Virus record (IMG/VR): IMGVR_UViG_3300046167_000334
Location: 1-46,724 of that record
Origin: a virus
Strand: one strand, 5' to 3'
Length of the DNA stretch: 46,724 nt
Position numbers and translations under genes: made by a program. Below, piece by piece: positions 828-39,678 of the stretch. Numbering within the stretch: the first letter of the stretch is position 1; every line of letters starts with the position of its first letter. A model generated the notes under the pieces. It had not been told where the DNA came from. It was given only the letters and a program-made list of their open reading frames with translations, and ran no database searches.

Positions 828-973
828 AATCCATTCAGCGTGGCCGTGGCGCTGCCAGCGTGGACGTGGGCACACCAACCCTCACAAGAAGTTTCTCTAC
901 GCCTCCTATGCGCTCTTCCCTGTCCATCAGGGACAGCACCAAGTGTCGCCGGCTGATCGATAGCCCGTGGTAC
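592..973 (+). pseudogene. terL: Terminase large subunit, N-terminal ATPase part, broken by about seven frame changes
   Basis: The ATPase half of the large terminase is recognisable but scattered over all three frames. In order it reads ERYRRSLREFTK, SAWPTIEPGV, FQNNWHLDAISDHLQAVV, then the Walker A-type segment NVPPRHMKS (about 806-830), SVAVALPAWTWAHQPS, KFLYASYAL and SIRDSTKCRRLIDSPWY. It then enters the intact frame at 967. Five switches fit single-base insertions and two fit single-base deletions; they total +3, so the start and end frames agree. The start at 592 has an AAGGA element just upstream and overlaps the small subunit. A phage cannot package without this gene and the rest of it is intact, so consensus errors are more likely than a true pseudogene. 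Confidence 0.8.
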
Positions 974-2106
974 AGGCGCACTTCGGTGACAAGTTTAAGC
1001 TGACCGACGATCAAAACCAGAAGCAGCGGTTTGAGAATGATCACACAGGCTATAGGATCGCCACCAGTGTTGGCGGCGCTTTGACCGGAGACGGGGGAGA
1101 CGTTATCTGCATTGATGACCCCCACAATTCGATAGAAGCCGACAGCAGCGCCGTCAGGGAGGGTGTGCTGGAGTGGTGGGATCAGGCCATGCAGACGCGC
1201 CTTAACGATCCAAAGACGGGCGCGTTTGTCATCATCATGCAAAGACTGCACGAACAAGACCTCACGGGCCATATACTCGCAAATGAGCTAGGCAATGAGT
1301 GGGATCACCTGTGCCTTCCTGCCAGATATGAGATCGGCCATCCCACGCCCAACAGATCAACTCTTGGCTTCACAGACCCCCGCACAGAAGAGGGGGAGCT
1401 TCTGTGGCCCGATAGGATGGACGAGAAGACCCTGACTACCCTAGAGCGGTCTCTCGGCTCCTACGCAGCCGCAGGGCAGCTACAGCAGCGGCCAAGCCCC
1501 AAGGGCGGTGGTATCCTCAAGTCAAGCTGGTGGGTGCCGTGGGAAAAGGAAAATTTACCCGACAATATCGAATATGTAATTCAATCTTGGGACACAGCCT
1601 TTGAAACAAAGGAAAGCTCCAGCTTCAGCGCCAGAACAACTTGGGGCGTATTCAAGTATCAAGGATACGACTGCGCCATCGTGCTAGAGGCGTGGTACGA
1701 TAAAGTTAACTACCCACAGCTACGCAAGCTGGCGCAGGAGGCATACGATGACTGGGAGCCAGACGCAGTTTTGATAGAGAAGAAGGCTTCGGGAAGCAGC
1801 TTGCTGCATGATTTGAGGCAGGCAGGGGTGCCAGTGCTGGCGTACAGCCCAGACCGAGACAAAGAAGCTCGCGCACACGCCGCATCTGCCCTGCTGGAAG
1901 ACGGCAGAATATTCTATCCCAAGCGCAAATGGGCCGAAGATTTGATCTCAATATGTGCCGCCTTCCCCGCTCACCCAAATGATGATATCGTTGACACTTG
2001 CACCCAAGCATGGCTAAGACTGAGAAAAGGATGGTTCTTAGGCCACACTGAAGACCCCGACGAGGACGATTATCAAGAACCGCAAAGGATAACTCTCTAT
2101 GGCTGA
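967..2106 (+). CDS. terL: Terminase large subunit, Walker B to nuclease portion
   Basis: This is the intact remainder of the DNA-packaging motor ATPase/nuclease. Walker B VICIDD is at residues 46-51 of this frame, followed by the coupling-type segment VIIMQRLHEQDLTGHIL. The C-terminal RNase H-like nuclease domain carries QSWDTAFE (Asp209), VLIEKKASG (Glu271) and PNDDIVDT (Asp339/340/343) as probable metal ligands. The protein cuts concatemers and pumps DNA through the portal into the prohead. The apparent GTG start at 967 is not the real start; the N-terminal ATPase lies in the disrupted region upstream. The 3' end overlaps the portal gene by 8 bases, implying translational coupling. Confidence 0.93.
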   Translation: MVQAHFGDKFKLTDDQNQKQRFENDHTGYRIATSVGGALTGDGGDVICIDDPHNSIEADSSAVREGVLEWWDQAMQTRLNDPKTGAFVIIMQRLHEQDLTGHILANELGNEWDHLCLPARYEIGHPTPNRSTLGFTDPRTEEGELLWPDRMDEKTLTTLERSLGSYAAAGQLQQRPSPKGGGILKSSWWVPWEKENLPDNIEYVIQSWDTAFETKESSSFSARTTWGVFKYQGYDCAIVLEAWYDKVNYPQLRKLAQEAYDDWEPDAVLIEKKASGSSLLHDLRQAGVPVLAYSPDRDKEARAHAASALLEDGRIFYPKRKWAEDLISICAAFPAHPNDDIVDTCTQAWLRLRKGWFLGHTEDPDEDDYQEPQRITLYG

Positions 2107-4561
2107 TCCAAATGTAATCCCGTTTGCCGAAGGCGCACCCGCAGATGACCTGATGGTCGAGACCCTCCCAGACGGTGACGTGCTAATCGGTGATCCAGAG
2201 CTTGACGTAATCGAAGAAAGCGACAACGGCTTTGACGCAAATCTCGCAGAAGAGATCGACGCACGGGAGCTATCGGCAAAAGGCGCAGAGCTTGTATCGT
2301 ATTACGAAAACGATGAAGCGGCCAGAGACGAGTGGAAAACACGCTACAAGGCAGGGTTGCGTACCTTAGACCCAGACGGAGGCTTAGATGAAAGCGAAGA
2401 CGAGAGGGCCACCCGTGGCCTGTCTATCGTTGTTCACCCCCTAATCGCAGAAGCGGCAACGCAATTCAATGCCAAGGCCATTGCAGAACTTTACCCGTCA
2501 GGTGGCCCAATCAAGACGGTCATCATTGGTCAGCCAGACGAGGAAATCGAAGAGCAGGGCCGCAGGGTCAGAGAATTTATGAATTATCAGATCACAGAGG
2601 AAATGCCCGAATACTTTCCCGATCTGGATCAAATGCTGTTTCACCTACCGCTGGTCGGCCAGACGTTCAAAAAGGTTTGGTGGGACGTAAACCTCGACAG
2701 GCAATGCAGCCAGTTCGTCAAGGCAGAAGACTTTTGCGTGGCTCCAGAGAGCAAAGACCTCTACACATCCCCACGCTATACTCACCTCATCAGAATGCCG
2801 AAGAACGACTACAATCGCTATGTTCAAAACGGCTACTACCTCCAGACCAGCGATGCAGGCAGCGATGATGTCGATCCAGCCGACAGCGTTATTGGCGAAA
2901 TCGAAGGCGTTGATGAATACGACGATAGCAACGATGACATAATCACACTGCTGGAGATGCACGTCTATGATTTGTTCGACGGCATTGATGGCGAAGAAAT
3001 GGATGAAGAGGATGAGGACGATAATGCTGTCGCCCTGCCCTATGTCATTACCATTGATTACGACAATCAAAAGATCGTGTCGGTCAGGCGCAATTGGCGC
3101 GAAGACGATGAAATGAAAAAACGCCGTGACTGGTTTGTGAGCTACAAGTTCTTGCCGGGTTTAGGATTTTACGGCTTTGGCCTATATCACATGATCGGTG
3201 GGTTGGGCAAAGCGGCGACAGGATCGCTTCGCGCTCTGCTCGACAGTGCCGCATTCAGCAATATGCAGGGTGGGTTCAAGTTGCGTGGCCGTGTTACTGG
3301 CGGCGATGTGCAAGTTAACCCCGGTGAATTTGTCGATCTCGACAGCACCGTCGATGACGTTAACAAAGCCATAATGCCACTGCCGTTTAAGGAGCCGTCA
3401 GGGTCGCTGTTTAATTTGCTGGGCTTTATGGTCGATGCAGGCCAACGCTTTGCATCCACAGCCGATCTTAATGTCGGTGACGTAAATCCCAACGCCCCAG
3501 TGGGATCGACGGTTGCCTTAATTGAGCAGGGATCGAAGGCGTTCAGCGCAATTCACAAGCGCTTGCACTACTCGCAGGGCCAAGAATTTAAACTCTTATC
3601 AAATCTAAACGCAGAAAATCTGCCAGAAGAGTTTACCTTCTCACGCGCTGGAGCAGCCGAAACGGTCTATGCCGCCGACTTTGATGACCGCATTGACATC
3701 GTGCCTGTGTCCGACCCCAACATCTTTAGCACCGCCCAGCGTATCGCGCAGGCACAGGCCGTGCTGCAAATGGCGCAGGCCGCACCGCAACTGCATGATA
3801 TGTACGAGGCGTACAAGCGGATGTACGAGGCGATCCGCATTCAGAACATCGATGAAATATTAAAAAAGCCAGAAGAAGCCGTCCAGATGGACTGCATCGA
3901 TGAAAATATGAGCGTGATGTATGGCAAGCCAATCCGCGCCTTCATTGAGCAAGACCATGAGGCGCACATCGCGGTGCATATGCAGTTTCTGCAAGACCCA
4001 TCTTTGGCTGGCAACCCCGGCGCTAAAACCATGCAGCCGATCTTAATTGCACACATCGCAGAGCATATTGCGCTGCTGTATCGCCTGAGAATGCAGGCCA
4101 GTGTGGCAATGCCACTGCCGCCACTGCCCGACTTTAAAGACCCCAACTTTAAGTTTGAGGACGTTGATCCAGAGCAAGATCGCTTAATTAGCCAACGGGC
4201 CGCAGAAGTGGTCAGGGCCGCACCCCAGATGAAGCAGATCGAAGCGATCAGGGGCGTTGGTCAGCAGGGTCAAGGTCAGGGCAATCCATTGGAATACGCG
4301 CAGCAATTGGCAAAGTTGGAGACCGAAGCCCTTACGGCCAGAACACAGGCGCAAATTGCTGCCGATCAGGCCAAGGCTCAATCGAACATTCAGATCAAGC
4401 AGGCAGAGGCCAAGCAAGATATGCAGATCGAAATGGCAAAGGCGCAGGCCGACTTGCAGGCGAAGGTCACAAAGCTGGAGGCCGAATTGCAGCTTGAGCG
4501 GGAGAAGAACGCAGCAAAACTAGAAATGGAGGCAATGAAGAATGTACCCCCCACGATATAA
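2099..4561 (+). CDS. Portal protein (P22/T7-like, 820 aa)
   Basis: Forms the dodecameric ring at one head vertex through which DNA is packaged and ejected. The length and domain order fit large podovirus portals. The N-terminus is acidic. A central core contains GFYGFGLYHMIGGL (about residues 356-370) and NAPVGSTVALIEQG (about 464-478), both characteristic of this portal type. Residues about 720-816 form a long Gln/Ala/Lys/Glu-rich coiled coil, likely the barrel or an internal extension. An acidic insert around residues 285-305 is rich in Asp and Glu. It is coupled to the terminase upstream and overlaps the next small gene. Confidence 0.9.
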   Translation: MADPNVIPFAEGAPADDLMVETLPDGDVLIGDPELDVIEESDNGFDANLAEEIDARELSAKGAELVSYYENDEAARDEWKTRYKAGLRTLDPDGGLDESEDERATRGLSIVVHPLIAEAATQFNAKAIAELYPSGGPIKTVIIGQPDEEIEEQGRRVREFMNYQITEEMPEYFPDLDQMLFHLPLVGQTFKKVWWDVNLDRQCSQFVKAEDFCVAPESKDLYTSPRYTHLIRMPKNDYNRYVQNGYYLQTSDAGSDDVDPADSVIGEIEGVDEYDDSNDDIITLLEMHVYDLFDGIDGEEMDEEDEDDNAVALPYVITIDYDNQKIVSVRRNWREDDEMKKRRDWFVSYKFLPGLGFYGFGLYHMIGGLGKAATGSLRALLDSAAFSNMQGGFKLRGRVTGGDVQVNPGEFVDLDSTVDDVNKAIMPLPFKEPSGSLFNLLGFMVDAGQRFASTADLNVGDVNPNAPVGSTVALIEQGSKAFSAIHKRLHYSQGQEFKLLSNLNAENLPEEFTFSRAGAAETVYAADFDDRIDIVPVSDPNIFSTAQRIAQAQAVLQMAQAAPQLHDMYEAYKRMYEAIRIQNIDEILKKPEEAVQMDCIDENMSVMYGKPIRAFIEQDHEAHIAVHMQFLQDPSLAGNPGAKTMQPILIAHIAEHIALLYRLRMQASVAMPLPPLPDFKDPNFKFEDVDPEQDRLISQRAAEVVRAAPQMKQIEAIRGVGQQGQGQGNPLEYAQQLAKLETEALTARTQAQIAADQAKAQSNIQIKQAEAKQDMQIEMAKAQADLQAKVTKLEAELQLEREKNAAKLEMEAMKNVPPTI

Positions 4562-4821
4562 TTTGCCCCCCATTAATCCTGCCGCCTTCGGCGGTTTGCC
4601 GAAAGAGCAAGCGCAGGGTGCGCGGCCCCCGCCCTCCCTCCCAAGGTGGGGGTCAGCAGCCCATAGACATGAATAAATATTTAATGAATAAAGTAGCTGA
4701 GATTCGACAGCGCATGGGCGCTGGTGATATGGGTGCCTTGACGGCGATATCGGACGCCGCACAGGTTCCAGTACAGCAGCCCCCTATGCAGGGGCCACCT
4801 CAAAGACAGGGAATGGCGTAA
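4542..4821 (+). CDS. Small Pro/Gln-rich protein, probably one frameshifted gene
   Basis: An ATG at 4542 with a GGAGG site at 4528-4532 opens a frame beginning MYPPRYNLPPINPAAFGGLP. Near 4620-4640, in a stretch of C5 and G5 runs, the sensible reading moves one base and continues as GGGQQPIDMNKYLMNKVAEI to the stop at 4821. Read together this gives a protein of about 90 residues: a Pro-rich head, a short helix and a Pro/Gln-rich tail. The single-base insertion needed matches the disruptions elsewhere in the window. A Lys/Arg-poor frame from 4618 alone has no ribosome site. Function unknown. It overlaps the portal gene and touches the next gene (TAATG). Confidence 0.55.
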
Positions 4822-5387
4822 TGGATGAAAAACAGGGCGCGTTTGCAGATTTAGATTTTAAAGATAAATTTGATGATTTTGATTTGCCTGTTTCTGGCAA
4901 CATTAATATTGACGGCACCTCAAATGAACCACGTTCTGAATTGGATTTATACAGAACATTTGATGGTAGGATGGGCAGCATTAAACCCTCAATCGGCTAC
5001 ACTATTGAAGAAACAAAATCCAGAGATGGCATGGCTGACGTTAGAAACAAGGCCAGAACTGTGCGTCTTGGTCTGGATGGATCGACCACATTGGGGCCAG
5101 TAGATTTAAGCGGAAACGTCATGGGCAGCAGAACCATGCAGGACAAAACCTATACGTTTCCCTTTGCCACTTTCACGCAGGGAAGCTCCAGCACATTTTC
5201 AAAGCTAGGCGCAGCGGCCAAGATGGGCGCGTTTGATTTTGAAATCAACAGGCAAAAATCAAGCGGCATGGAGCCAGTATATTCTGGATCGATTGGCATG
5301 AATTTTGGTGATGGTGGTCGCATTAGCTACTCTGACAGCAGCACTGGCGAACCAAGAATTGACGCCAGATATCGAATGGAGTTTTAG
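4821..5387 (+). CDS. Beta-rich protein with outer-membrane-barrel-like pattern, 188 aa
   Basis: No enzyme motif is visible. The sequence is a succession of short strands with alternating polar and apolar residues separated by Gly/Asp/Asn turns (VSGNINIDGTSN, VRLGLDGSTTLGPVDLSGNV, YSGSIGMNFGDGGRISYSDS). It ends in RYRMEF, with a terminal Phe as in outer-membrane beta-barrels. It has no signal peptide. Similar Gly-rich beta proteins occur near structural genes of marine phages, from memory. A virion-carried protein that acts at the host envelope is possible but is inference. It starts on the TAATG overlap of the previous gene. Confidence 0.7.
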   Translation: MDEKQGAFADLDFKDKFDDFDLPVSGNINIDGTSNEPRSELDLYRTFDGRMGSIKPSIGYTIEETKSRDGMADVRNKARTVRLGLDGSTTLGPVDLSGNVMGSRTMQDKTYTFPFATFTQGSSSTFSKLGAAAKMGAFDFEINRQKSSGMEPVYSGSIGMNFGDGGRISYSDSSTGEPRIDARYRMEF

Positions 5388-5389
5388 AG

Positions 5390-6247
5390 ATGTGCGGTGG
5401 ATATGGTGATACAGACAGCAACAGAGATGGTGAAGTAACTCTTGCTGATTTCTTCAGAGACATTACAGACGGCGGTGGTGCGGGATATTCTGGCGCACGG
5501 TTTGGGGGCGGTACTGGCTCTAGTGTATTAGATGACAACAATGACATGTATGTATCCGAAGCAGAATATATGCGGGGGCAAAAAGCATATGAAGCCAATC
5601 AACGAGAGGGCATCGAAGATGGTCGTTTCGGCAATGCATACAGGGACTCTCAAAACATATTGAGCAAGTTTAGCAATACCTTTGGCGCACTGCCACGGGG
5701 ATCGATACGCCAAGAGGCTGCATTGGGGCCAGAATATGGATCACCAATAGAGACAAAAAATATGGCTAGTTTTTTGCAGGGCGGTGGCTTTACGGGCGCT
5801 GCTATCAGGGGAGTTAGTGGGTTTTTAGGTGGGTCGGCTGACGCTGCTGGAGATATGGCTATGGCTCCAGTTCGGGCGTACAGGGGCGAGGGCGCACCGC
5901 CCGATCCTGTTGTAACACCAGAGCAGCAGGCAATAAGTTATGACAGCATCTTTAACACAGGTTCTTCTCAGTTCGATAAGTTACCAGAGGCTCAACGAAA
6001 CGCTATCATACGAGGTACACGGTCTTTAAATTCACGTCTGGGACGGCCCGTGTCTGTGCCTGCGAATGTGCCTGTCAATAATGTGGAAGTGTCTACAGCC
6101 ACAAACACAGCAGATGCGTCTGGCACACCATACGTTGTGAATGCTGAAGATATGGGGGGAGGTATGGTTAAGGTATTTTATGGAGATAATTCATCTGAAA
6201 TTATGCCAGCAATAAATTACCAATTAATGATGCAAAATTATGTATAG
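5390..6247 (+). CDS. Protein with two N-terminal EF-hand-like calcium loops, 285 aa
   Basis: Two canonical 12-residue calcium-binding loops are visible. DSNRDGEVTLAD at residues 9-20 has ligand positions D1, N3, D5, G6, hydrophobic 8 and D12. DDNNDMYVSEAE at residues 48-59 has D1, N3, D5, V8, S9 and E12. Both are followed by aromatic residues, as in EF-hands or dockerin-like repeats. The rest is Gly/Ala-rich with a hydrophobic Gly-rich stretch around residues 125-160 and a beta-like C-terminus. A calcium-dependent structural or protein-docking role in the virion is a reasonable guess. The gene lies in the packaging-to-capsid accessory block and is preceded by a two-base gap. Confidence 0.75.
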   Translation: MCGGYGDTDSNRDGEVTLADFFRDITDGGGAGYSGARFGGGTGSSVLDDNNDMYVSEAEYMRGQKAYEANQREGIEDGRFGNAYRDSQNILSKFSNTFGALPRGSIRQEAALGPEYGSPIETKNMASFLQGGGFTGAAIRGVSGFLGGSADAAGDMAMAPVRAYRGEGAPPDPVVTPEQQAISYDSIFNTGSSQFDKLPEAQRNAIIRGTRSLNSRLGRPVSVPANVPVNNVEVSTATNTADASGTPYVVNAEDMGGGMVKVFYGDNSSEIMPAINYQLMMQNYV

Positions 6248-9588: not shown

Positions 9589-11034
9589 ATGAGCAAAAAA
9601 ACATTACTTGATGCAGGGTTAAATATTGCCCAAGAGGTTGCTGGAAAAGTCCTTGACCTTTTAAAGTCAGGCCGTGGCGATGAAGTCACCCCACAAATGT
9701 ATTCAGCCGCTGACAAGCAGTTTTTAGTGGAGAACTATGATCTGCCGACTGACACGGCCAGCAGGCTGGAGCGTGGACGTGAAGGTGGCTTTGATTTTAA
9801 CACGGGTCGGTATCACGGTGGCTTTGATGAAATTGAATACATGGCCGATCCCAATGACGTGTATATGAACCCACAGGCCAAGCTGGAAGGCACAGAGAGC
9901 GGTACATACAGCGGTCAGGCGCACAGTGGGGGCGGTCTATACACATCCACTGACCCTAGTGATGCAGGCGATAATTATGCGTCCCTGACAGGCCCAGACG
10001 TGAGAAATGAAGTCAGTATGGAGCTTGATAGAATTACTGACAGCAGTAATTTGTATGACGCCGCTAATTTTATGTTTGATGATATGAACAAGGCTGAAGT
10101 GCAGCTAATCCCCCAGCTATTGCAGCATCAGGCCATTAGAAATTCAAACATCGATCCCAAGAATGCACAGAAAGTTGTTGATCGTTACAATGAATTAATG
10201 AGCCGTGGTACTTTTACAACGGGTGACAAAATTGAATTTGAAGAACTTGTTGAAGATGTTTTTGGCACCGCAGACCCAGATAGTACGGTTAGGTCAGGAT
10301 CGTTCCCACCCGGCTTTATGCAGGCACTGGCAGAGTACAGAATTACGCGAGGCGGTGGTCAAGTTATTAAGCTGGTGGATCGCGTTGAAAACCCCGTCAT
10401 AATTGGAGGGCCGAAGGCCACCGTATTTAAGGGTGGACGCAGGGAGCTAGACCCAGCGGATTACATTGACGATGCGGAGCAACAAATCGATCAGTCGGCA
10501 TACCCCGATAAGATTGAATACCGTGAGGCCGTACAAGAACGCGCCGAAGAGCTTGCCAATAATGATAGTTATAGTTTTGAGCGCGAGGGGCCAGCGGTTG
10601 ATATCATTGAAGACTTACTGGACAATATGCCAGACGATGGTTCTGTTTTATATGACGATCTTCGGTCTGCCCTATATATGCATCTTGATGACTATGGCGA
10701 AATAGATGCCGAAGACTTAGAAAGAATATTTAGAACCAATTACAACAGTAATTACTATGACCCCGACCAAGCGGGGCCGGGCCAGATTTTAAATGAGGTG
10801 TATCGAAACGCAGGGTTTGATGCCATTGATTTGCCAAGAGCGGGAACAACTTTTGGCTTTGGCCCAGCGGGAGCCACGCATAGGGTTGAGCTTGATCCAA
10901 CAAAAATACGCAGTCCAAATGCAATGTTTGATCCGCGCCTTTCGCATCTTCCAAACTTGACGGCAGTAGCGACACCAACGGCGGTTGGTCTGGGCGCGTT
11001 AAGCCAGATAGATGAAGACGAGGAGACGCAGTAA
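9589..11034 (+). CDS. ADP-ribosyltransferase-like polyvalent-type protein 1, 481 aa
   Basis: Residues 60-131 carry the start of an ART fold: ERGREGGFDFNTGRYHGG (YHGG at 75-78) followed by GGGLYTSTDPSDAGDNYA (114-131). This is the H-Y arrangement of ART domains in phage polyvalent proteins. The C-terminal part has GFDAIDL and then KIRSPNAMFDPR at 439-450, the hallmark closing strand of that family. Between them is a roughly 280-residue helical insertion. The tail AVGLGALSQIDEDEE is hydrophobic then acidic. Start chosen at 9589 (MSKKTLLDAG), since upstream residues overlap the previous gene. Modification of host proteins after entry, or of phage proteins, is inference. The gene abuts the second ART gene (TAATGG). 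Confidence 0.8.
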   Translation: MSKKTLLDAGLNIAQEVAGKVLDLLKSGRGDEVTPQMYSAADKQFLVENYDLPTDTASRLERGREGGFDFNTGRYHGGFDEIEYMADPNDVYMNPQAKLEGTESGTYSGQAHSGGGLYTSTDPSDAGDNYASLTGPDVRNEVSMELDRITDSSNLYDAANFMFDDMNKAEVQLIPQLLQHQAIRNSNIDPKNAQKVVDRYNELMSRGTFTTGDKIEFEELVEDVFGTADPDSTVRSGSFPPGFMQALAEYRITRGGGQVIKLVDRVENPVIIGGPKATVFKGGRRELDPADYIDDAEQQIDQSAYPDKIEYREAVQERAEELANNDSYSFEREGPAVDIIEDLLDNMPDDGSVLYDDLRSALYMHLDDYGEIDAEDLERIFRTNYNSNYYDPDQAGPGQILNEVYRNAGFDAIDLPRAGTTFGFGPAGATHRVELDPTKIRSPNAMFDPRLSHLPNLTAVATPTAVGLGALSQIDEDEETQ

Positions 11035-12182
11035 TGGCAACTGGATCAGGCATAAAGGCAGGCTTTAAAGCTGCCAAAAATCTTGTTGGTAATGCCGTGG
11101 ACTATTTGGGCAATAAGTTTGGCGCTCTTCCAGAGGGGGAGCCTGCTGGAATTGGTCACAACAATCCACCGCCAGAGTTTAGAATGCCGACAGCTTTGGG
11201 TGCGCTGCAAAGATCGCCAGAAGATCAAGCATTTTTTGAAGAATTTCGGCCAGAAATGTATTATCACGGCACCCGTGGTGACTTTTCAGAATTTAACCCT
11301 GCTATGCTGGACTTGGGCGTACACGTTGGCACACCAGAACAGGCCAATGAGCGTTTGCTGGACGTGGCAAGAATGAAGGGTGAAATACCCAGCTATGGTA
11401 ATTTTGATAGCGACAAACCACCAGTCATCCCAGAGGCAAGGGTTATGCCTGTTCGTGTAAACGTGCATAATCCACTTAGAATGCCTGACGTTGGTAATTG
11501 GAAAAGCAGTTCCAAAGTAATTGAAGAGCTTGAAAAGCAACAATACCAAAACTCTGGAATAGATATAGACGAAATAATGCAAGCCTACGATGACATTGCA
11601 ATGAGCGATCCCATTGGGAATTATAGCGATCCAGATGATTGGATTGAAAGCATGGAAAACAGGGAATTGCTTGAGATAATTAACGAAGAAATCCAAAAGG
11701 CTGGATACGATGGCATTGTGTATAAAAACATCGTGGAAACAACGTCGATGGGTGAGGGCGAAATTATGCCCGAAGCAAAGGCCAAAATTGCTGAAATAAA
11801 AAAAGAATTATTGGTTATAAATGACGCCGCGACTGCGCGAATGGAGGCGACAAGGCCACTAGAGGCAACAGTTCCCCGTGCAGCAAATGAAACATTAACC
11901 GCATCTGAAGTAATGAAACGCATCAAGGCGGCAAACGATTGGGACATACAAAACTCTCCAGAGGCTTTTAAAACCCCAGAAGAAATGGCCCGTGAAGATC
12001 AACTTATGGATTTGCGCGATGATTTGGAAACGCAGAGATATTCGCCTGACAGCATGATTATTCTAAACCCAGAAGACATTAGATCACCCAATGCGGCCTA
12101 TGACGTAGACAGGCGGGACAGTTATGACATAATGTCGGACGCAGGCGCATTGGCTGGCATTCAAAACACAGGGATCGCGTAA
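11034..12182 (+). CDS. ADP-ribosyltransferase-like polyvalent-type protein 2, 382 aa
   Basis: A complete ART signature is present. YYHGT is at residues 76-80, LGVHVGTPEQANERL at about 94-108, a strand RVNVHNPLRMPD at 141-152, GYDGIVYKN at 224-232, and DSMIILNPEDIRSPNAAYD at 339-357. The YHGT/GYDGIVYKN/IRSPNA series is characteristic of ART domains of phage and plasmid polyvalent proteins. Near the N-terminus lies GIGHNNPPPE (39-48), a motif I recall at the N-termini of many alphaproteobacterial phage proteins. The enzyme would transfer ADP-ribose from NAD+ to a protein or nucleic-acid target; the target is unknown. Translational overlap with both neighbours. Confidence 0.85.
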   Translation: MATGSGIKAGFKAAKNLVGNAVDYLGNKFGALPEGEPAGIGHNNPPPEFRMPTALGALQRSPEDQAFFEEFRPEMYYHGTRGDFSEFNPAMLDLGVHVGTPEQANERLLDVARMKGEIPSYGNFDSDKPPVIPEARVMPVRVNVHNPLRMPDVGNWKSSSKVIEELEKQQYQNSGIDIDEIMQAYDDIAMSDPIGNYSDPDDWIESMENRELLEIINEEIQKAGYDGIVYKNIVETTSMGEGEIMPEAKAKIAEIKKELLVINDAATARMEATRPLEATVPRAANETLTASEVMKRIKAANDWDIQNSPEAFKTPEEMAREDQLMDLRDDLETQRYSPDSMIILNPEDIRSPNAAYDVDRRDSYDIMSDAGALAGIQNTGIA

Positions 12183-19041: not shown

Positions 19042-19944
19042 ATGGCTATGAATAGAGCAAATTTTGCTAAAATGCTTGAGCCGGGTCTGAATACTCTTTT
19101 TGGACTCGAATATGACAGCTATCCATCCGAATATGAGGCGGTTTTCGAATCAAATACTTCTCAGAAGGCATTTGAGGAAGACGTTCTTTTATCAGGTTTT
19201 GGAAATGCTCCAACAAAATCAGAGGGTTCTGCGGTTTCGTATGACGCAGCCTCTCAGCAGTGGACTGCGCGTTATCAGCACGAAACAATCGCTTTGGCTT
19301 TCTCAATCACTGAAGAAGCTGAAGAAGACGGCCAGTATGGTTCGATTGCTTCTCGCTATACAAAAGCGTTGGCTCGCTCAATGGCCTCTACTAAAGAGAT
19401 CAAAGCGGCTAACATTTTGAATACCGCGACAACCGCTTCAGGTGGGGATGGCGCTACTCTATTGAGTGCATCACACCCAACCCAGAACGGCAACCAGTCT
19501 AACGTGCTTGCCACGGCGGCTGATCTGTCCGAAACATCTCTTGAATCGATCCTGATTAACATCAGCGACATGAAAGATGATCGTGGCCTTCGCATTGCGG
19601 CGCAGGGTATGCAATTGGTTATTCCAACTGCCTATCAGTTCACCGCAGAGCGTCTGCTGGAATCAGCATTGCGTCCAAGCACTGCCGATAACGACATCAA
19701 CGCGATTAAGGCTGGTGGTTATTTGCCACAGGGCTATCACATCATGCGCCGTTTGACTGATGCTGATGCGTTCTTTATTAAAACTGACGTTCCAGATGGT
19801 CTGAAGCATTTCACCCGTTCAGCAATGAAAAAGGGTATGGAAGGCGACTTTGAGACTGGCAACGTCCGTTACAAGGTGCGCGAAAGATATAGCTTTGGCT
19901 TCACCGATTGGCGCGCCTTATTTGGAACCGAAGGCGCAGCATAA
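19042..19944 (+). CDS. Major capsid protein (HK97-fold type), 300 aa
   Basis: The N-terminal region MAMNRANFAKMLEPGLNTLF is followed by an assembly core containing LALAFSITEEAEEDGQYGSI-like strands and helices, a loop with SHPTQNGNQSNV, and LVIPTAYQFTAERLLESALR. The C-terminal part ends KVRERYSFGFTDWRALFGTE. This arrangement matches Mu gpT-like or HK97-fold capsid proteins of comparable length. GGAGGG at 19029-19034 is a strong ribosome site. A strong terminator immediately follows, suggesting high-level expression that is separated from the tail genes. Confidence 0.85.
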   Translation: MAMNRANFAKMLEPGLNTLFGLEYDSYPSEYEAVFESNTSQKAFEEDVLLSGFGNAPTKSEGSAVSYDAASQQWTARYQHETIALAFSITEEAEEDGQYGSIASRYTKALARSMASTKEIKAANILNTATTASGGDGATLLSASHPTQNGNQSNVLATAADLSETSLESILINISDMKDDRGLRIAAQGMQLVIPTAYQFTAERLLESALRPSTADNDINAIKAGGYLPQGYHIMRRLTDADAFFIKTDVPDGLKHFTRSAMKKGMEGDFETGNVRYKVRERYSFGFTDWRALFGTEGAA

Positions 19945-26517: not shown

Positions 26518-26721
26518 ATGACACCAGAGACGTTTGATAAATTCAAAGTTTTGCCGCGAATAATGATGTTGGCTGTTACGGTGCTGACGTATCAAAGTGT
26601 TCACTGGTTTATGTCTATCCCCCCAGATCAAGTAACAAATGCCCAAGCGGGTTTGGTTAGCGTCTGTATGGGCGCACTTACTGGCTGTTTTGGCATCTTC
26701 ATAAACGGTGAAAAAGCATGA
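26518..26721 (+). CDS. Putative holin-like membrane protein, 67 aa
   Basis: Two hydrophobic segments, VLPRIMMLAVTVLTYQSVHW and LVSVCMGALTGCFGIFI, are joined by a polar loop; the C-terminus NGEKA is charged. The size and two-helix layout suit a class II holin or an anti-holin. It overlaps the 3-TM holin gene by four bases. Confidence 0.65.
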   Translation: MTPETFDKFKVLPRIMMLAVTVLTYQSVHWFMSIPPDQVTNAQAGLVSVCMGALTGCFGIFINGEKA

Positions 26722-27173
26722 TGGCTCTTCTGGGAAGTCTGCTAGGCTTCGGATCATCGTTTCTGCCGTCAGTGCTTGATTACTTTAAGGCCAATCAGCA
26801 GCAAAAGCATCGCATTGAAATGATGCAAATAGAAACAGAGCTTGCACAAAAGCGGTCTGAAATGAAGCTGGTCGAGCTAGATAAGAAGGCAGACATCGAA
26901 GAAACAAGGGGCTTGTATGAGCATGATCGATCTATCGACGCTGGAGGATTTATCAACGGTCTTCGGGGTTCTGTTCGTCCTATTGTTACTTATGCCTTTT
27001 TCGGATTGTTCGTAGCTACGAAAGTAGTAATTATGGTCAAAGTCACGCAGGCTGGTGGAGACTGGATGCAGGCCGTCGATCTCATGTGGGATGGGGAGAC
27101 ATCTGGATTATTCAGCGCAGTTCTGGCATTCTGGTTTGGAAATCGGGCAATCAGTAAATATGCAGGGAAATAA
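26718..27173 (+). CDS. 3-TM holin of the gene-transfer-agent release type, 151 aa
   Basis: The N-terminal amphipathic/hydrophobic segment LLGSLLGFGSSFLPSVLDYF is followed by a charged coiled coil (residues 25-70). Then come VRPIVTYAFFGLFVATKVVI and a C-terminal helix LFSAVLAFWFGNRAISKYAG. The 'helix, basic coil, RP(I/V)xTY helix, FWFGxR helix' plan is that of the GTA_holin_3TM family known from alphaproteobacterial gene transfer agents and phages. It likely permeabilises the inner membrane to release the endopeptidase encoded next. Confidence 0.82.
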   Translation: MMALLGSLLGFGSSFLPSVLDYFKANQQQKHRIEMMQIETELAQKRSEMKLVELDKKADIEETRGLYEHDRSIDAGGFINGLRGSVRPIVTYAFFGLFVATKVVIMVKVTQAGGDWMQAVDLMWDGETSGLFSAVLAFWFGNRAISKYAGK

Positions 27174-27175
27174 TT

Positions 27176-27628
27176 ATGGGCTACAAGTTAAGCAAACGAA
27201 GTCTATCTAGGCTGGACGGTGTAGACGAAAGAATGGTGGCTGTTGTTAAGTACGCCATAGGTGTTACCAAACAAGACTTTTCGGTAATTTGTGGACTGCG
27301 AACAATAGACGAGCAACGTGCTTTGGTTGCAAAAGGAGCTTCGCAAACCATGAAGTCAAAACACATCGACGGTAACGCTGTTGATCTTATGGCTTACTGC
27401 GATGGCGGCAGATGGGAACTGAACCTCTATGATGAAATTGCAGACGCCATGAAAGAAGGCGCAGAGGCTGTGGGCGTAAAGCTACGCTGGGGCGCTGCGT
27501 GGACTGTTAATGATCTAGGTGCTTGGGAGGGTAGCGCAGAGGACGCTATGAACAGCTATATAGACATAAGGCGCTCACAGGGACGTAGGCCCTTTATCGA
27601 TGCTCCACATTTTGAGACCATGTTCTGA
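27176..27628 (+). CDS. M15-family L-alanyl-D-glutamate-type endopeptidase (endolysin), 150 aa
   Basis: Cuts peptide cross-bridges in peptidoglycan. Zinc ligands are His63 and Asp70 in SKHIDGNAVDLMAY and His145 in DAPHFE, the typical M15 H-x6-D...H set. CGLRTIDEQRALVAKGAS precedes the site, as in phage M15 endolysins. No signal peptide, so it depends on the adjacent holin. The stop overlaps the next start (TGATG). Confidence 0.9.
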   Translation: MGYKLSKRSLSRLDGVDERMVAVVKYAIGVTKQDFSVICGLRTIDEQRALVAKGASQTMKSKHIDGNAVDLMAYCDGGRWELNLYDEIADAMKEGAEAVGVKLRWGAAWTVNDLGAWEGSAEDAMNSYIDIRRSQGRRPFIDAPHFETMF

Positions 27629-39231: not shown

Positions 39232-39678
39232 TTAGCGGGGTGCTTTTATTTCCCACGCATAGCCCACGCGCTTGCGGCGGTGCTTGGATTTGCGAACGCT
39301 GTGCCATTCGCCAGACTGGTTGTCGATGGTTTTGTCGCCCGACACCACAATGTAGTGGCCCGTGATATTGACCAGATAGGTCTTCTTGCGATCACGGGTC
39401 TTGAGCCAAGCCGCCAGCGTAGGATTGTGTCTGGCATACGATCCAACATCACGGCAGTAGTGTAACGTCATCTGAATGCCATTGGCCCCCATGACCGTCT
39501 TCATGAGCTTGTTGCTCATACCCGTGATCTTGCCGCGAAACGTGTGACACAGGCACACTTCATATGCGGCGTCATAGTGCTGACGCATGAACACAGCAGC
39601 GGCGTATGGGCCACACCATGTGTGGCGGCTCTTGCTGGTGCGAAGGGGGGTGTGGGCTTGGGCAGTTCTTGGAAGCAT
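39232..39678 (-). CDS. Papain-like/C39-like cysteine peptidase candidate, 148 aa
   Basis: Catalytic-type residues appear in papain order. Cys22 lies in TWCGPYAAAVFMRQHY at the start of a helix, His108 in NITGHYIVVSGD, and Asp119/Asn120 follow in KTIDNQSGEW. CGPxAxA plus HYIVV is the pattern of C39-like and related papain-fold proteins. No signal peptide, so it would act in the cytoplasm, perhaps on host or phage proteins early in infection. Basic C-terminus (RKSKHRRKRVGYAWEI). Ribosome site GGAGA. No family was verified by search. Confidence 0.65.
   Translation of the reverse strand: MLPRTAQAHTPLRTSKSRHTWCGPYAAAVFMRQHYDAAYEVCLCHTFRGKITGMSNKLMKTVMGANGIQMTLHYCRDVGSYARHNPTLAAWLKTRDRKKTYLVNITGHYIVVSGDKTIDNQSGEWHSVRKSKHRRKRVGYAWEIKAPR

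Follow-up and report, generated by a model that had tools for sequence, protein, structure and literature searches.

The window analysed here is a virus contig of 46,724 nucleotides (a 46.7 kb record) close to the roseophages CRP-901 and CRP-902. TerS, TerL, a portal, a major head protein, GroES and ejection-type proteins were identified on it with PHROGs and Pfam. The gene studied, hereafter named the loop gene, lies between the portal gene (2099-4561) and the major head protein gene (19042-19944), on the portal side of the head genes, as stated by a first-pass annotation that had assigned it to the head region. Its product is rich in Gly, Asp and Ser. Two EF-like loops of 12 residues, 39 residues apart from start to start, had been reported in this product, and both are present in the + strand open reading frame (Table 1). 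No transmembrane segment or hydrophobic signal was found in the loop protein, no hydrophobic segment was found in its neighbour proteins, and no EF-hand match was obtained in the proteins encoded next to it. The neighbour at 4821-5387 (+) is a 188-aa protein with an alternating, strand-like sequence reminiscent of a beta-barrel and no family match. At the start of the window, the large terminase gene is split into 592-963 and 967-2106 (+), with about 800-970 disrupted between the two parts. The gene is intact in relatives (e.g., L034:746-2254), and the split is either a sequencing error or a real lesion.

Table 1. Coordinates in the window of the loop protein, its segments and a probable lysis cassette.
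Feature	Position	Strand	Residues	Description
Loop-protein ORF	5390..6247	+		285 aa, ATG start, Gly-rich; AF2 mostly low-confidence
Loop 1 DSNRDGEVTLAD	5414..5449	+	9-20	PS00018 match; lineage-specific
Conserved linker D..DGGG..(Y/R)SGARF	5459..5503	+	24-38	
Loop 2 DDNNDMYVSEAE	5531..5566	+	48-59	Family-wide, EF-hand-type; D1/D5/E12 invariant
Helix leaving loop 2 (predicted)	5558..5608	+	57-73	Mean pLDDT about 60
Conserved SN..GA.PRGS segment	5672..5704	+	95-105	Closes the core module
Probable lysis cassette	26518-26721, 26718-27173, 27176-27628	+		67-aa and 151-aa membrane-type proteins, endolysin

The collection of relatives from IMG/VR started from the window protein, from two alignments and from three distant members. 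One further relative was taken from the bacterial-genome collection, where the single match lay on a contig binned as Flavobacteriaceae; this is probably a phage contig, because phage-like genes are found on it. The resulting core alignment contained 33 rows, with identities to the window protein down to 31%. The nearest relative, L004, is a fragment with 100% identity. In a CRP-901-type group, which includes L067-L071, the portal is 83-100% identical to that of the window where the locus includes it. More distant groups comprise L030, L041-L050 and L064-L066, and the portal of L041 shares only 42% identity.

The location of the loop gene varies among these relatives. It follows the portal in CRP-901-type relatives and precedes an SLT transglycosylase in L030. 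In L041-L049 and L057-L066, the next gene downstream encodes a small membrane protein of phrog_2524, and an endolysin gene comes after that (phrog_465, or GH19-type in L041 and L066); in most of these loci, a 71-74 aa membrane protein is encoded just upstream of the loop gene. The loop gene is portal-side in some phages and lysis-side in others, and position does not decide its function. The lysis-side loci, together with the transglycosylase of L030, would suit a lysis or envelope-stage protein that acts late with the small membrane proteins and the endolysin, and whose loop fills when the envelope is breached. We consider this rather unlikely, given the post-portal position in CRP-901-type relatives and a product devoid of signal or membrane segment. 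Moreover, the homologous cassette of the window (26518-27628), whose endolysin is a homologue of the M15-type enzyme found in distant lineages, lies 21 kb away and contains no loop gene; lysis was for this reason set aside as the main reading for the window. For the window phage, an accessory protein that is virion-associated or co-packaged seems to us more likely than one acting in lysis.

The two loops were then compared with the PROSITE expression PS00018. Loop 1 together with F21 fits this expression, and the sole mismatch of loop 2 is at loop position 6, which is Asn or Gly in 31 of the 33 family members and Met in the window sequence only. When the loop protein was shuffled at constant composition, at least one PS00018 match arose with P = 0.0009 and at least two loose EF patterns with P = 0.00025. 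Over all window proteins (10,513 aa), two PS00018 matches were seen for 0.07 expected, and four loose matches for 1.07 expected. Of these PS00018 matches, one falls in an acidic portal stretch (DDSNDDIITLLEM) and probably arose by chance, and the EF pattern alone is therefore not decisive. Taken on its own it is suggestive, and what makes loop 2 convincing is its conservation among relatives.

The core common to all members reads D[MI]xDGGGxGxSGARF, a short spacer, DxNxDNY[IV]SExEY and then SNxxGAxPRGS. In loop 2, Asp occupies positions 1 and 5 and Glu position 12 in 33/33 cores, position 3 is Asn or Asp in 32/33, position 9 is Ser or Thr in 33/33, and the hydrophobic position 8 is Ile or Val in every core. 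Positions 2, 4 and 11 vary widely in the same alignment, and codons at the invariant positions still differ synonymously among members. Linker residues D24, D27, G28-30, G35 and F38 are likewise invariant. A Pfam scan of the 33 members matched EF-hand_1 in 28 (best E 4.7e-5) and EF-hand_5 in 23 (best E 3.1e-4), and EF-hand families were the only ones to recur. The window protein alone scored E 0.16 to 0.015 against Pfam EF-hand families, with 12-15 bits, below the curated cut-off of 25.4. A search of the PDB with the family profile returned almost only EF-hand proteins as top matches (calaxin, calsenilin, calsensin, NCS-1), with a marginal best E of 0.0013 and an alignment covering residues about 47-68, i.e., loop 2.

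The marginal single-sequence scores, the poor structure models and the Gly/Asp/Ser-rich composition could also indicate an acidic-rich coincidence, in which no calcium is bound and the conserved residues serve, for example, a turn or a protein contact. This is improbable in view of ligands that are invariant at the exact EF spacing, with I/V at position 8, in 33 members, and of a family scan in which nothing but EF-hand families recurs. We consider the conserved EF-hand-type calcium loop very probably real for the family, and somewhat less surely so for the window copy because of Met53 at loop position 6, which may weaken the putative Ca2+ binding. Overall, Ca2+ binding by loop 2 appears well supported by the sequence. 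The proposal of EF-hand calcium loops is thus supported for loop 2, with its invariant ligands and profile match, and not supported for a working pair.

Loop 1 is lineage-specific. Its intact EF form is found in the window, L004, L007, L031 and L033, and it is absent from L001-L003, L010, L024, L034-L050 and L064-L071. Other relatives carry altered versions (DSNKDGTVGGF-like or DTDGDGKSDG-like), or a rebuilt form, DTDGDGKSDGIG, with loop 2 kept. As loop 1 is altered or missing in most relatives, the EF-hand pair is not a family feature, and the hypothesis of paired EF-hands was dropped; a calcium-binding pair would be confined at most to a small group of close relatives. The altered loop 1 of several relatives (DTDGDGKSDG, DIDGDGRAD) presumably resembles thrombospondin type 3-like DxDxDGxxD calcium motifs. 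Unlike thrombospondin type 3, it is present as a single copy and forms no array, and loop 1 of the window has the EF form instead.

Structure prediction had been suggested as a check for paired, helix-flanked loops. The AF2 full-length model (12 sequences) had a mean pLDDT of 35, and the core model (33 sequences) a mean of 45, with 52-62 over residues 50-90. At this low confidence (pLDDT 35-62), both models place a helix after each loop, at residues 18-26 and 57-72/73, and neither places a proper helix before loop 2, where the core model has a four-residue turn at 44-47 and the full-length model nothing. The inter-loop linker (DGGGxGxSGARF) is Gly-rich and ranks with the best-conserved segments of the family, an argument against a pair of helices between the loops. 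The core model marks residues 34 and 54 alone as bridge residues, which hints that loop 2 touches the linker rather than loop 1. No significant match was found by Foldseek with the core model (best E 2.7). Two working EF-hands forming a calcium-sensing pair would agree with the fit of both loops in the window, L007, L031 and L033. Such a pair is nevertheless a distinctly improbable reading, since most relatives have a rebuilt loop 1 or none but retain loop 2, a Gly-rich linker without any predicted entering helix fills the spacing, and the low-confidence bridge residues point to a contact between loop 2 and the linker.

Loop 2 has the ligands at positions 1, 3 and 5, the acidic residue (Glu/Asp) at position 12 and the hydrophobic residue at position 8 of a classical EF-hand loop, and its consensus DxNxDNY[IV]SExE fits the loop and exiting helix of EF-hand_1, EF-hand_5 and EF-hand_6 (PF00036, PF13202, PF13405). 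Unlike classical EF-hand pairs, the loop protein has no predicted entering helix and no conserved partner loop, and the window scores are below curated cut-offs. Judged by its sequence, it belongs to an uncharacterised phage protein family and is not a classical paired EF-hand. Loop 2 is similar to the sites of the LysGH15 CHAP domain and of type I dockerin, with a 12-residue loop, ligands at positions 1, 3, 5, 7 and 12 and, in the low-confidence models, one flanking helix. The predicted arrangement fits the "EF-hand-like, loop-F" pattern as used for LysGH15, from which the "EF-hand-like" definition was taken (PMC4022735), with model confidence too low to claim it. The LysGH15 CHAP is an enzyme domain with its site near the active-site groove (PMC4022735), and neither this fold nor that of dockerin, in which the loop-helix unit is repeated and binds cohesin, was recognised in the loop protein. 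A dockerin-like adaptor with a cohesin-like docking partner among the neighbouring phage proteins, as first suggested, is very improbable and was dropped: the loop followed by a helix and the DxNxDG motif recall one half of a dockerin, and one family member matches Dockerin_1 at E 0.26, but the record contains no match to Dockerin_1 (PF00404, E<=1) or to Cohesin (PF00963; a diverged partner is still possible), the second segment is not conserved and no duplicated loop-helix repeat is seen across the family.

The closest named counterpart is CRP-902 gp76 (WED25172.1, "hypothetical protein"). Like the window protein, it has an MC start and a post-portal locus, its module being separated from the portal by a single small gene. 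It shares the module DIIDGGG...F...DLNGDGYITNEEAY...SGATPLGS (hhalign probability 94%) with a canonical loop, DLNGDGYITNEE, and the window ORF carries the corresponding core-module pattern of the CRP-902 gp76 family, D[MI].DGGG...G..F...DxNxDxY[IV][ST]xxE...GA.P.GS. Gp76 differs in its length (491 aa), in its N- and C-terminal modules and in lacking loop 1. It came to light only by way of L030, a distant member, and of synteny; no match came from PHROGs or from a direct tblastn search of named phages with the window protein. The CRP-902 genome paper mentions neither calcium nor EF-hands (PMC10149686). Our literature search found no paper linking EF-hands with pelagiphages, and the combination of EF-hand, dockerin and bacteriophage returned lysin and unrelated papers only.

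The core module is absent from CRP-901, HTVC023P, HTVC027P and DSL-LC04, so related phages manage without it. The region from portal to GroES, in which the loop gene lies, is long and variable, running from 4.6 to 16.6 kb in the window and being much shorter in HTVC023P and DSL-LC04. It also encodes in the window, at 11034-12182 (+), a protein that matches ART-PolyVal weakly (E 1.9e-4, below the curated cut-off). ART-PolyVal is an ADP-ribosyltransferase domain known from phage polyvalent proteins.

We propose, with about an even chance of being correct, that the ORF belongs to an undescribed family of marine-phage late accessory proteins that have a single loop-F Ca2+ site and are virion-associated or co-packaged. 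This proposal is built on the sequence, its conservation, the EF-hand profile match and the gene position, from which we infer Ca2+ binding, folding on Ca2+ and virion association. The shared core (residues about 20-105) would contain one EF-hand-like "loop-F" site, made of loop 2 and its exiting helix, with Ca2+ liganded by D48, N50, D52, the backbone at Y54, S56 (directly or via water) and E59. Binding of a single Ca2+ ion would give order to a Gly-rich segment that is otherwise flexible, and would anchor it to the invariant DGGGxGxSGARF linker; loop 1 could provide a second site in the window protein and in a small number of close relatives. The protein would be made in the cytoplasm, where free Ca2+ is low, and its site would fill on meeting the periplasm or seawater. 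Given cytoplasmic synthesis and the lack of a signal or membrane segment, calcium would most likely be a structural or folding element. The product is most likely a late accessory protein with a core module ordered by one Ca2+ in seawater or the periplasm.

A more speculative extension, which we regard as improbable, is a phage calcium switch, i.e., a protein disordered in the cytoplasm that folds only once Ca2+ is available and thereby couples lysis, or virion maturation or entry, to calcium. The trigger could be envelope breach, release into seawater or, in reverse, injection into the low-calcium cell, and the gene, lying beside the portal in some phages and within the lysis cassette of others, would be a module reused to this end. 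If the main proposal is true, the family would supply a candidate for a calcium-dependent phage protein outside the lysins and the obvious adhesins. Its importance would be moderate, and it would make a modest and testable addition to known EF-hand-like sites.

Several other proteins of the window and its relatives deserve mention. In L041, a 103-aa small membrane-type protein (L041:5070-5381), encoded immediately upstream of the loop protein, carries an EF-like loop, DLNDNGKIDPEE (EF-hand_5, E 0.013). In L030, a 986-aa phage protein (L030:1987-4947) begins with a dockerin-like segment, DLSGDGKVTKKDIL, suggesting that such loops may recur among marine phage proteins. An N-terminal module, HMLAYI[NT]P.E...GP.G[IV]P.[YF], is shared by L030, L034-L040, L071 and CRP-901 gp72 (L052:10688-13261); it is joined to differing C-terminal parts, so these proteins are mosaics. 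Finally, a 148-aa ORF of the window (39232-39678, -) contains a WCGPYA motif resembling that of a cysteine peptidase.
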